Positions 27,657-57,630 of a stretch of 64,000 nucleotides of DNA are shown here, piece after piece. The position numbers and the translations under genes are program-made. Origin of the DNA: Brachyhypopomus gauderio (taxonomy: Eukaryota > Chordata > Actinopteri > Gymnotiformes > Hypopomidae); NCBI RefSeq assembly GCF_052324685.1, contig NC_135225.1:14464110-14528109 (forward strand), written 5' to 3'. How positions within the stretch are numbered: the first letter of the stretch is position 1; the number at the start of each line of letters is the position of its first letter. The notes under the pieces were generated by a model, which was not told where the DNA came from, ran no database searches, and saw only the letters and a program-made list of their open reading frames with translations.

Positions 27657-30600
27657 TCACAGGAAATACCATTTGTCCACTGTGAAAGAGATCATCACAC
27701 ACAACAGCATGCCTATCATTTGATATGCCATGAACAGGCTTGACAAAGGTGATCATATGTGCTTCAACACAAAAACACTGGGGGGGGGGGGGGGGGGGGG
27801 CAAATCTACCTTCTGAAGGAATGGGTAGCGATTCTCCATACTCAGGCGCCTAGGATCAAAGCACAGTCTGTCATGATTTCTGACAGGCATTGCACACATC
27901 CCCCAAGAGACCCTAATCGAAGCTTTTCTTATTCTCGGCACAGACAGCTTCAGATCCAGCTTCAATGGGTTAAACACTCACCCCCCTGACCACTGCATCA
28001 GCGTCCGCATCACTGCACCGGAACGGGCTTTCACCCACCGAGGAATTCTGACTACAACAACAAAAGCACGCTTTCAGTCTGTTAGTCCAACGCAGGAAAG
28101 CTCAGACGTAGAGACAGAAGGCTTACCAGACTATATCTCCACACTTCGTCTGTTTCTGCACAAGTGCTTTCCAATAGTTGTGAGCTGTTTTTATAACTTC
28201 TAAGGCAAAGTCCTGTAACACAAATCCATAACATTACAAGCAGTTGAATGAGAATAGAGGGAAAGGTTATTTTTACTGTGAGTGGTGTAATGATGTGGCA
28301 GTAACATGCCGACACAAACTGGCCCCGGTACCTTGTCCTTGTACTGGCCCTTAAAGGCAAACTGGTTCTCGGGTTTCCCATCTGGAATTTTGTACTTCCT
28401 GAACCATTCCACAGTTGCGTCCAACTGACCTGGTCTTTTCACACGAACATCTTCAATACCTAGTGATGAAGCAGAGAGTCATGTCCCGTTCCACTGACAC
28501 TGCTCTGTAGTCGGTGCAGGTAAACTGACTGTTAAGTGTGGAAGCGTCAGGGTCATCCGTATTGATGGCAATTATCTTCCAGTCTGTCTCTCCTTCATCA
28601 ATCAGAGCGAGTACACCGAGCACCTTCACCTGAATCACCTGCCCAGTGGAGCACACCTGAGACACACAGGTAAACACATACACACAGTTTCATATTACAA
28701 TTTACATTCATGACATTACCAGACAATTTTTTTCTTAAAAAAAAAAAAGTCTAAAGTATGTTTAAAGTGACTTACAATTATGACCTAAACAACAGTGTTA
28801 TCAGGGGCTCAAAAGGGTCAACGCAGCAACGGTGGGGCTTGAACGGTCAACCTTCTGATTACTAAACAAGCATCTTAACTGCTGAGCATGCAGTGTAATG
28901 GGGAACACCTACTGATCAGAACCTCTCTCACCTTACTGCCTATGTCACAAACATCTACAGGGTCGTTGTCTCCACAGCAGTTGGTGTCTTTGTCTGTGTG
29001 GTTCGGATCCTCCCAGGTCTGAGTCAAAAGTAATAAAATAATCTCAGCGTGTTAAACAAACAGACAAACCACTGCTGCACCACTACACTACCACACTCAC
29101 CTGTGGTAGAGCCCCATAGTTCCAGATGTAGCACCGGTACACTACCACACTCACCTGTGGTAGTGCCCCATAGTTCCAGATGTAGCACCGCTACACTACC
29201 ACACTCACCTGTGGTAGTGCCCCATAGTTCCAGATGTAGCACCGCTACACTACCACACTCACCTGTGGTAGAGCCCTATAGTTCCAGATGTAGCACCGCT
29301 ACACTACCACACTCACCTGTGGTAGTGCCCCATAGTTCCAGATGTAGCACCGGTACACTACCACACTCACCTGTGGTAGTGCCCCATAGTTCCAGATGTA
29401 GCACCGCTACACTACCACACTCACCTGTGGTAGAGCCCCATAGTTCCAGATGTAGCACCGCTACACTACCACACTCACCTGTGGTAGTGCCCCATAGTTC
29501 CAGATGTAGCACCGCTACACTACCACACTCACCTGTGGTAGTGCCCCATAGTTCCAGATGTAGCACCGCTACACTACCACACTCACCTTTGGTAGAGCCC
29601 CATAGTTCCAGATGTAGCACCGCTACACTACCACACTCACCTGTGGTAGTGCCCCATAGTTCCAGATGTAGCACCGCTACACTACCACACTCACCTGTGG
29701 TAGTGCCCCATAGTTCCAGATGTAGCACCGGTACACTACCACTCACCTGTGGTAGAGCCCCATAGTTCCAGATGTAGCCTTTATGTGGGAAGACGTTGGC
29801 TACGTAGCGCAGCCTGCCTTTCTTCACGTCCTGCTTGATGGGGTTCAGTGCCTCTTTCGTGGCAATCTGTAGAAATTCACAGGGTTGAACAAGGCCATAT
29901 AAAAGCAGAAATCTTCATGCCCGTTTTCTGCTGCAGTCGAACAGCGTTATTTTGGTGTCTGTTGCCGACCAGAAGAGGATGGATCCCCTTTGGTTAATCT
30001 TCCTCATGCTCTAGGTAGTGTCTTCCTCGTGTTCTAGGTAGTTTCTTCCTCGTGTTCTAGGTAGTTTCTTCCTTGCCACTGCTGGCTTTGGCTTACTAAC
30101 TGGGGACGGGGACTTGGACTCGGACATGTGTAAAGCTGCTCCGTGACAACAGCGCTATACAAATTAATTAGACTGACACCCATTAAAAGTGTGAAGTATA
30201 ATGTAGAAGTCAACTAGAACACAATAGCTAGATTGATATCAACAATTCCTGCCAAGTGCATAATACACCAGCCTTAGAAGCCAGCCTGTTAAAACACAAC
30301 TCTCTTGAAATCACACACACACACCTCCATCTTGGCATTTGTCCAGCGGGGAACCTCCACCACCATATTAAAGAGAATCTGTGGCAACAGAAATGTTTTT
30401 GTGTTAACATTTGCATGTAAATATACTGTAATTATCTACATACTAATTTCTTAAGTACACACATTCACCCACCAGCATGCATCTGAGATCAGCCATGTGA
30501 TTTAGTCTCTTAATTATCCAAAGTTAGTTGGAGTCAGTTATCAAGTATGCTGTTAAGCGTGCCACATCAACAAATACCCATGTCTAACGCCACACCACTT

Positions 30601-54805: not shown

Positions 54806-57630
54806 TCACTTCTTCAGCTTCCTCTGTGCAGCCTTCTTCTTCACCATCTGCAGGCGCTTCATGGCGTTCAGCTGGGACTCCTGTGATGTCGGCGTTTTGC
54901 CGTCTGCTGACACTTTGGCCGTGGCGTTACTGTTGTTGTTACTGCTGCTGCTGGCGCTACTATTACCGCCCCCGTTTCCACTGCCATTCACGCCTGAGCC
55001 ACCATTGCCCCCCAGGCCACCGGAGGGCACCGTCCCGGGTGAGACAGAGCCCGTGGCCATCAGCTTGCCCAGGCTCTCGCCGCTGGACGAGCGGCTCAGA
55101 GGCTGCTTGCCCAGCGTGAGAGGGGGAGGTGCCTTCAGCTGCGCCGTGGACGAACCGTTATTCCCGTTACCACTCCCCCCACCGCCAGCACTTCCACCGC
55201 CCCCTGAGGCTTTGGCACTGGGCTTCACATTGGCCAGGGCGGACAGACCCATGGGCTTGGGTCCTGTGGGGGGCTGGGGGGGCTTACTGGCCCCCGGCTT
55301 GCTGCCGGAAGCCCCTGCTGTGGAGGTTTTGGTAAAAGCAGCCCAGCCAGTGAGACCAGAGGGCAGAGACGAGCTGCTCCCCGACGAACTCCCCGACGCC
55401 ACTGTAGACACCTGAGACACACACACACACAGACCAACACACACAGACTAACACACTCTTATCAGGCTCTTAGCAGAAGAGCTGGGATTAAGAAATAGCA
55501 TAGGCAACAGAATCACATTTCATCCAGAATGGATTTAAGAGCGCTGGGTCTATTTAAAAGCCTGTGGCTGGTTTTTTGAGTCAAAATGGCAGACACATGA
55601 AGATGCAAGGATCTCACCTTCACCTCCGTCCTCTTGAAGGCCTGGAAGGACCCTGCTGTAACCTCCGGCTTGGCCTTCAGCTCTGGCTTCTTCACCAGAG
55701 GCTCCTTCACCACGGGAGCAGCAGATAGCGTCACAGCCGGTGCCGCCTTCTGAGGAGGCTTCTGGGGCTTCTGAGCCTGGTGGAGTACAGTATAAACACC
55801 ACCACATATACTGAACCTGATGGAGTACAGTATAAACACACCACATCTCCTGAGCCTGGTGAGTACAGTATAAACACCACCACATATCCTGAGCCTGGTG
55901 GAGTACAGTATAAACACCACCACATCTCCTGAGCCTGGTGGAGTACAGTATAAACACACCACATCTCCTGAACCTGGTGGAGTACAGTATAAACACATCC
56001 ACAGCCTCACTGCTGCTCCCACACACTATTAAACTAGCATCACATGTCCCACAAACACCAGCTTCCACACCATCAGCATGTGTCCTACGAACCCTACAAC
56101 CTCCATTACGGATTACATTAATGCATCACTACATGCTCGACAGGGGGATGGGAAAGCAAAGCCAAGTTTAACCTGAAAGCAGCAGGTCAAATGAGCAGAG
56201 CCTCCGATGAGATTAAAGAGTAAAGGAAACAGCTCGTTTAAAAAGTCTACGGGACCTAGTCTACAAGGTTGTTATTTGAAACAATTTTTTACAGAACTTT
56301 ATGGTAGTGTGACATTCAGTTCTGGCAGCAAGGTTTAACACAGAGGTTCTTTGTACTGATGTAAAACATGCAAGCACATGACAGTACAGGAAAACTGTGA
56401 AAGAGATTAAACTGCAACTACTAAACCAGTATTCTACAGTGTATGTATGTATTAAAACCGGCACTCTACAAAGGTACGTATTTCCAAGTGATTAGTACCA
56501 TGGCCATTCTACTACCATATCTGCTTTCCAGTCCTGGGTATGTGACCCGTGACAGTACATCACATAAAAGGGGGCAAAGCAAACATCTCACCATGCGCTT
56601 CATCTGTCGGGTGCAGCGTGCGCAGTACCAGACCAGACGGGGGTCGTTGACGTCTTTGTCCGTCACCTGAGGCTTGTGACATTCTTGATGGTACAGATTA
56701 TGACACTCTTGACACTCCACAAGCTGATTGCCTGAAGTGACCGTCATCTGTCTGTGCTCAACCAGATTGAGGGCTTAAGCTTAGTGACACGCTAGGATGT
56801 TATCAAAAGTATAGGTAGCATATTACAGCTTGTGTGAATCTGGTTAACGTGACAGACCGGCAGACCACGCAGACGAGTCCCATCTCCATGGCGAAGTCGT
56901 CAGCGTTGGTCTCATCGCTGTAAGTGAAGTCGGCGAGGGGCGGGTCTTTGTGTTGGAAGGTGACGGGGGAGGGGCAGCTCTCTGGCCTGTCCAAACGCTG
57001 CTTCTTCACAACTTCCCCACACTCCACCCGCACCTGCAAGCGAACGTAAACCACGGTCAGCAAGGGCAAGATCAGCCTCCTCAAGGTCAAACACTGCATG
57101 ATGGAAATGTATGTACCACTTGCCGTGTTGGGAACTAGATAAAATAAAATAAAAAAACATGAGGAGCAATTTGAGTGTTTAGGATTTCAGAGCAGAGATC
57201 ACCCACCTTCTCTGCAGGTCTTTTCTCTGCCTCTTTCTTGATTTTCTCCGAGTTGCTGGACTTCCCGCTCCCACTGCTGCTGGAGGAGGATGAGGAGGAG
57301 GATGAGGAAGAGGACGAACTGGATGATGACTTGGTCTCTGGTTTGTTTATTTTGGGTAGCGACACCTTGGTCACCTCGGTTTCCTACAGCAAGGGGAAAC
57401 ATTTTCAGTACCCACACAGAAGCTACAAATAACTTCAGCGAACGTTGAATGGCGTTAGCTAGATCAGCCGGCACCTTTAGTGATGTCCGGTAGACTGAAT
57501 CGCTCCCTCTGGATAAGGACTCGTCCACCAGAGCTTTTAGTTTTTCAGCAGAGTCTTTGCTTTTTGAGTGAAGGTATCCGAGCCCTTTCAGAAAAATAGG
57601 GTCCAACTCGAGACTGACTGTTCCCGCCAT
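54806..57630 (-). CDS. ints12: Integrator complex subunit 12, PHD-finger protein (six coding exons)
   Basis: Nuclear subunit of the Integrator complex, which cleaves snRNA and paused RNA polymerase II transcripts. Coding exons in transcript order: 57630-57475, 57383-57207, 57033-56858, 56751-56592, 55776-55618, 55411-54806. Phases join to 477 aa (human 462). The N-terminal Integrator-binding helix is visible ([19 protein letters not shown]). Exon 2 codes a serine run of about 20 residues written in mixed codons. The C4HC3 PHD finger is at about residues 166-220, from CVVCRQM through YHQECH to YCARCTRQM, all eight metal ligands present. The Ser/Gly/Pro-rich tail ends [18 protein letters not shown], near-identical to human. 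Intron 5 is partly a minisatellite that copies the exon 5 acceptor. Confidence 0.95.
55777..55995 (-). repeat. 39-40-bp minisatellite carrying copies of the ints12 exon 5 acceptor
   Basis: On the minus strand each unit holds TACTGTACTCCACCAG|GCTCAG, matching the real acceptor (exon high end 55776) and the first six exon bases. Copies of the exon hexamer lie at 55811, 55850, 55889, 55929 and 55968 (two read GTTCAG). The real site is the most downstream copy. All lie in intron 4-5 of ints12. Confidence 0.95.

Follow-up and report, generated by a model that had tools for sequence, protein, structure and literature searches.

A minisatellite over the exon 5 donor of a fish ppa2 gene holds twelve additional, nearly identical 5′ splice sites

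The window analyzed here, a stretch of 64,000 nucleotides on contig C15, contains reading frames that we take to be those of tet2, ppa2, arhgef38, and ints12, with the identity of ppa2 alone backed by searches. This gene order points to a bony fish. On the minus strand, ppa2 exons 1 to 9 could be placed, and they join in frame after a presequence of the mitochondrial type. The partial product gave a best E value of 2e-112 against solved inorganic pyrophosphatases in a PDB search, the best chains presumably being human PPA1, and matched Pfam PF00719 at 2.6e-50. Judged by these matches, this is the mitochondrial pyrophosphatase gene ppa2, with exons 1 to 9 intact. A protein search of the assembly returned ppa2, one paralogue, and no others. 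The paralogue, at C15:5.83 Mb and taken for ppa1 from its sequence, has the same exon 5/6 border as ppa2, CCTCAG/GTAAGG (a slash marks a splice border), without an array.

Exon 5 of ppa2 (120 nt; 29747..29866, minus strand) ends at donor 1, the authentic CAG/GTGAGT, which is the nearest to consensus among the nine listed donors of the gene; the final 32 nt of the exon form the founding end of the repeat described below. Intron 5 (728 nt; 29019..29746) and exon 6 (28932..29018) follow on the same strand, and introns 7 and 8 measure 70 and 119 nt. The donor of exon 7, at 28530, is ACA/GTCAGT, a weak match to the consensus. Minisatellites and dinucleotide runs abound in the window (1-64000), with 110 TRF rows, some of them overlapping.

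Across the border of exon 5 and intron 5 lies a minisatellite of 13 copies (29077..29778, minus strand), for which TRF gave a period of 54, 13.0 copies, and 96% matches. Each unit comprises 32 exonic and about 22 intronic bases and repeats an AG/GTGAG site, so that the authentic donor at 29747 heads a series of 13 donors on the minus strand. The last exonic bases of the extras fall at 29695, 29641, 29587, 29533, 29479, 29425, 29371, 29317, 29263, 29209, 29155, and 29101, the first spacing being 52 bp and the remaining eleven 54 bp. These twelve extra 5′ splice sites (29095..29698, minus strand) comprise 11 CAG/GTGAGT and one AAG/GTGAGT, at 29587; in terms of donor 9-mers, 12 of the 13 read CAGGTGAGT and the one at 29587 reads AAGGTGAGT. 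The extra donors were compared with the authentic one over 32 exonic positions and intronic positions +1 to +7. The intronic positions never differ; ten of the extras have a single exonic base changed, and donors 7 and 13 match donor 1 at all 39 positions. The original prediction had described an array built from the exon 5 donor, with the exon as its end member and CAG/GTGAG kept in 11 of the 12 extra copies, and all of this held. As in border repeats of the CBS 31-bp type, the unit straddles the border between a coding exon and its intron, and the exon is intact and coding, with the array bounded on one side by the exon's own donor. A three-unit query of the 796.5-Mb assembly found no second copy of the ppa2 array, its 6 matches all lying within the array itself.

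How might such a structure have arisen? The end of exon 5 encodes an 11-residue stretch that is conserved in pyrophosphatases and aligns with the best PDB match; because these residues are conserved, the array derives from exon 5 rather than exon 5 from the array. At the joint of the duplication, GC is all that is common to the exon (AAAG/GCTACATC) and the intron (GGT/GCAGCAG), and we infer slippage or an end-joining duplication with 2-nt microhomology. A T/A variant at position -10 reads TAATAATAATAAT across the 13 units, a perfect three-unit pattern that is 1 of 1287 arrangements. Differences per unit are fewest for units three apart (0.78, versus 1.45 for neighbors). Together, the pattern at -10 and the likeness of units three apart argue for growth at least partly by three-unit blocks, in steps of 162 bp, and the pattern suggests past changes in array length. 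We propose that a 54-bp tandem duplication over the ppa2 exon 5/intron 5 border was amplified to 13 copies, partly in such blocks. Amplification would have extended intron 5, which without the twelve extra units would probably measure about 80 nt, to its 728 nt and would have placed 12 near-identical donors downstream of the authentic one.

The array, or its copy number, might instead have been made during assembly, given that a single assembly is at hand and that tandem arrays are liable to copy-number errors. However, the variants that distinguish its units recur in a regular period of three, contiguity of the assembly is good (796.5 Mb, 840 contigs, C15 at 23.6 Mb), and comparable arrays adjoin other exons. 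We consider an artefact very unlikely.

Use of any extra donor would have consequences that can be read from the frame. As predicted, the 52-bp first unit puts the downstream donors out of frame, all 12 extras being in frame +1 relative to exon 5. From donors 2 to 9, translation would run into a stop in exon 6. It starts 71 nt into that exon, with the exon 6/7 junction 16 nt and the exon 7/8 junction about 143 nt further on. From donors 10 to 13, and upon intron retention, translation would end in unit 10 at TAG 29278 (29276..29278, minus strand), a single-base variant in the exon 5 read-through frame. The expectation that the unit lacks a stop in that frame was thus correct for the units before unit 10 and wrong for unit 10 itself. 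Under the usual junction rule for nonsense-mediated decay, RNAs from every extra donor, as well as those retaining the intron, should be subject to decay. The accompanying suggestion that such RNAs may escape decay found no support, translation from 12 of 12 extras being cut short, and the stop in exon 6 carries more weight here than the one in unit 10. Nor is ppa2 an in-frame array of alternative donors that would vary protein length, again with all 12 extras at +1 and leading to a stop.

That leaves the question of which donor is chosen. With local sequence near-equal at the 13 donors, position must decide, be it order, distance, or wider context. Expectations here are opposed: exon definition, or an advantage of the donor made first, would favor donor 1, and a preference for short introns or for downstream sites would favor donor 13. 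Older work found the downstream one of two equal donors to be preferred, which speaks against donor 1. Donor 13 lies 82 nt from the acceptor, the length of intron that would be left by its use, and could compete well. It might even be the main donor, through intron definition, with the allele a hypomorph or on its way to becoming a pseudogene. Besides the nearby acceptor, its identity to donor 1 over 39 positions fits such a role, as do the short introns 7 and 8, from which it follows that short introns are spliced in ppa2. However, exons 1 to 9 are intact and in frame, which would be unexpected of a gene making truncated products only, since such a gene should decay, and the protein search gave ppa2 and one paralogue alone. 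We consider a main role for donor 13 very unlikely.

All extra donors lead to premature stops and exons 1 to 9 are intact; thus, if the allele works, donor 1 carries its function, and on the evidence of the intact exons we infer that it dominates. In DOK7 minigenes, use of the upstream donor was reported to rise once it was made equal to the downstream donor, with SRSF1 binding still shifting the choice (PMC5585400). Order alone, therefore, need not decide between donors. The explanation we favor, and hold to be somewhat probable, is that an array made by slippage persists since splicing stays mostly on the exon-most donor, possibly with some leakage into decay. Donor 1 would be transcribed first and paired with the exon 5 acceptor by exon definition, and splicing would mostly occur there. 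Rare use of an extra donor would yield a frameshifted RNA, to be removed by nonsense-mediated decay; the loss would be small and may rise with copy number. Donor choice, decay, and an effect of dose are all expectations within this explanation.

RNA structure offered another way in which the authentic donor might be set apart. Extra donors could sit in the loops of perfect 8- to 10-bp hairpins and so be hidden from U1, with the authentic donor less so. Indeed, eight extras take the form CACTACCACA-GGTGAG-TGTGGTAGTG, a 10-bp stem around the donor (-15.5 kcal/mol), and three have an 8-bp stem (-11.7 kcal/mol), and the main stem at the authentic donor is 2 bp short (-12.5 kcal/mol). In the run with shuffled controls, the mean predicted cost of opening was also about 0.9 kcal/mol higher for the extras than for donor 1 (5.8 versus 4.9). 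On the other side, donor 4 has no such hairpin (-5.7 kcal/mol), and the opening cost of the authentic donor equaled or exceeded the mean of the extras in five of five settings. Donor 13 was the costliest of the 13 in the shuffled-control run (7.0 kcal/mol); across the five settings, it was costliest in two (5.9 and 5.7 kcal/mol) and among the cheapest in two (2.6 and 2.8 kcal/mol). No donor stood clearly beyond its 60 controls, in which flanks were shuffled base by base, the most extreme being donor 13 at 4 of 60. Finally, pairing with U1 (-11.9 kcal/mol; -10.4 kcal/mol for the AAG donor) outweighs the opening costs. Although the stems are real, at 12 of 13 donors, the authentic donor cannot be told from the extras by its opening cost, and the controls are unremarkable; we rejected masking by hairpins, which we regard as highly improbable.

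To place the ppa2 array in its genomic setting, we looked through the assembly for triplets of a strong donor 9-mer, with 29 to 59 bp from one copy to the next, and used the same letters read backwards as an enrichment control. The triple pattern was found at 998 places for CAGGTGAGT (1937 backward), 106 for CAGGTAAGT (63 backward), 20 for AAGGTAAGT (45 backward), and 247 for AAGGTGAGT (39 backward); an H variant of the CAGGTGAGT triple gave 375 versus 1039 backward, and single CAGGTGAGT gave 15,674 versus 14,580 backward. Across these six comparisons, there was no consistent excess of arrays at donors over chance, the backward control being higher in three and lower in three, and the idea that donors attract minisatellites was dropped.

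Among the matches listed, the sequence before the first exact copy was read in 59 array pieces (28 for CAGGTGAGT, 17 for CAGGTAAGT, 7 for AAGGTAAGT, and 7 for AAGGTGAGT, the last picked as coding-like from 18 listed). At least 8 of these were uninformative, pointing inside the array (L043, L070, L072, L078, L080, L084, L094, and L096). By eye, in 13 of the 59 pieces from the matches listed, the first copy closes an open reading frame, the tail of which is repeated in the unit. By pattern, such junction arrays made up 7 of 28 for CAGGTGAGT, 0 of 17 for CAGGTAAGT, 1 of 7 for AAGGTAAGT, and, among those selected as coding-like, 5 of 7 for AAGGTGAGT. Between 5 and 29 nt of exon tail are shared; at the lower end, L087 has a clear exon, but its 5-nt tail makes a weak case.

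At least nine of these other arrays begin at the donor of a recognizable exon (family match below 0.001). Their matches are to LDL-receptor class A (L037, 9.4e-13), ubiquitin-like (L050, 2.2e-5, under the Pfam curated cut-off), zinc finger (L056, 1.4e-5), PEX11 (L087, 1.2e-17), ankyrin (L098, 8.1e-11), synaptobrevin, VAMP-like (L099, 1.5e-6), fibronectin III (L101, 9.4e-4, under the curated cut-off), PDE3A (L086, 1.8e-16), and RNA polymerase III RPC1, that is, POLR3A (L054, 1.8e-11). An EGF-like match was weak (L051, 0.0076), the exon peptide of L097 had no family match, and those of L090 and L102 were too short for a family search. As a Pfam control, frames ahead of non-junction arrays gave 0 of 10 matches below 0.001 (best, 0.044) versus 7 of 10 for junction peptides. 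Border minisatellites thus recur in this genome, and they are evidently survivable. The original view of the ppa2 array as born from an exon-intron junction was right, yet this was one of several such arrays and not a singular event.

Similar structures may exist on the acceptor side. Within the same window, a 40-bp array of about 6 copies (55771-56003, minus strand) ends at a probable ints12 exon, and its units carry versions of (C)ACCAGG(C/T)TCAG, the would-be acceptor of that exon; it is a possible acceptor-side counterpart. A PDB search with the probable ints12 exon gave no significant match. Elsewhere, a 46-bp array (L046, C1:52.25 Mb) that is antisense to a PDZ exon (Pfam, 6.3e-9) adjoins the acceptor of that exon, which appears to form part of the repeated units.

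The first five junction arrays, 4 of them with a period divisible by 3, had suggested selection for frame. The idea was dropped once the count stood at 7 of 13 in the larger set (expected, 4.3; hand-computed binomial P about 0.10), a test of low power with 13 arrays, 5 of them drawn from the set chosen as coding-like. The lack of clear selection is in keeping with little use of the extra donors. If splicing shifted to the first extra donor, the frame would stay open in 5 of 13 arrays (L037, L050, L051, L054, and L086), and some use is therefore possible there. Frames were read by computation in 10 of the 13; L099, whose piece lacks a second unit, was judged by its period of 46, which breaks the frame. 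Periods are 44 and 41 in L090 and L097, and the L102 unit (period 45) has, as read by eye, a stop in each of three frames. Unlike ppa2, the L037 and L054 arrays have read-through frames open for 572 and 837 nt. At the PDE3A-like exon of L086, the frame stays open through a 21-bp border array to the end of the sequence piece, and use of an extra donor would add residues in frame.

Could array length matter for ppa2? The extra donors might be appreciably used in proportion to their number, with array length setting the share of ppa2 RNA lost to decay. All 12 are near-consensus and bound for premature stops, and there is a human precedent. CBS activity is reported to be lower when 31-bp repeats at the exon 13-intron 13 border of the gene are more numerous (PMC5188458; table entry PMC1395315). 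For an intronic repeat in ABCA7, a correlation with reduced expression and with exon skipping is reported (PMC5954066). By analogy with CBS, a dependence of ppa2 output on array length is plausible. Like arrays at exons of other genes, one of them matching POLR3A, nevertheless suggest tolerance, and we regard proportional use of the extra donors as unlikely. One can also envision a whole class of "donor minisatellites" in this fish genome (in ppa2 and in genes matching POLR3A, PDE3A, PEX11, VAMP, and others), each starting at the donor of a working exon and each tuning output through copy number and decay. Were this so, a gene's own splice site would furnish a heritable dimmer of variable length; we regard the proposal as unlikely. 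Border arrays are candidate loci for length-dependent expression of the kind reported for human CBS.

Choice among equal donors has so far been studied with engineered pairs. The ppa2 array is a natural test of how the correct donor is chosen, with 13 donors of nearly equal local sequence in one enzyme gene, and the at least nine comparable arrays at recognizable exons differ in unit length and number. In the open-licence literature, we found no prior account of a genome-wide class of such border arrays. New here are the thirteen near-equal donors within a single gene whose exons are intact, together with the recurrence of such arrays across the genome.

On its sequence, the ppa2 array is of a known kind, the border repeat of the human CBS type. 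That repeat, c.1444_1467+7(16_21), is reported in 16 to 21 copies of 31 bp (PMC2630376); as in ppa2, a unit that reaches from a coding exon into its intron is present many times. The units differ, with 31 bp in CBS (24 exonic and 7 intronic, as implied by the name) and 54 bp in ppa2 (32 and about 22), and length variation is known in human, whereas the ppa2 array is known from one assembly. CBS 844ins68 is also a border duplication that leaves competing splice sites, of which one is reported to be strongly favored so that normal mRNA is made (PMC2630376), but it duplicates a single intron 7/exon 8 junction rather than arraying an exon's donor. In the AGGT model of intron gain, described for potato RdRp, tandem duplication across a splice border likewise creates splice sites (PMC4974935); a new intron results there, whereas in ppa2 an existing intron appears, from the DNA alone, to have been lengthened. 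The length of the ABCA7 repeat correlates with splicing and expression, but the abstract does not describe it as bearing the exon's own donor (PMC5954066). In the DOK7/SRSF1 minigenes, equal donors compete and outside signals sway the choice (PMC5585400), as may happen in ppa2, with two engineered donors there and thirteen natural ones here.
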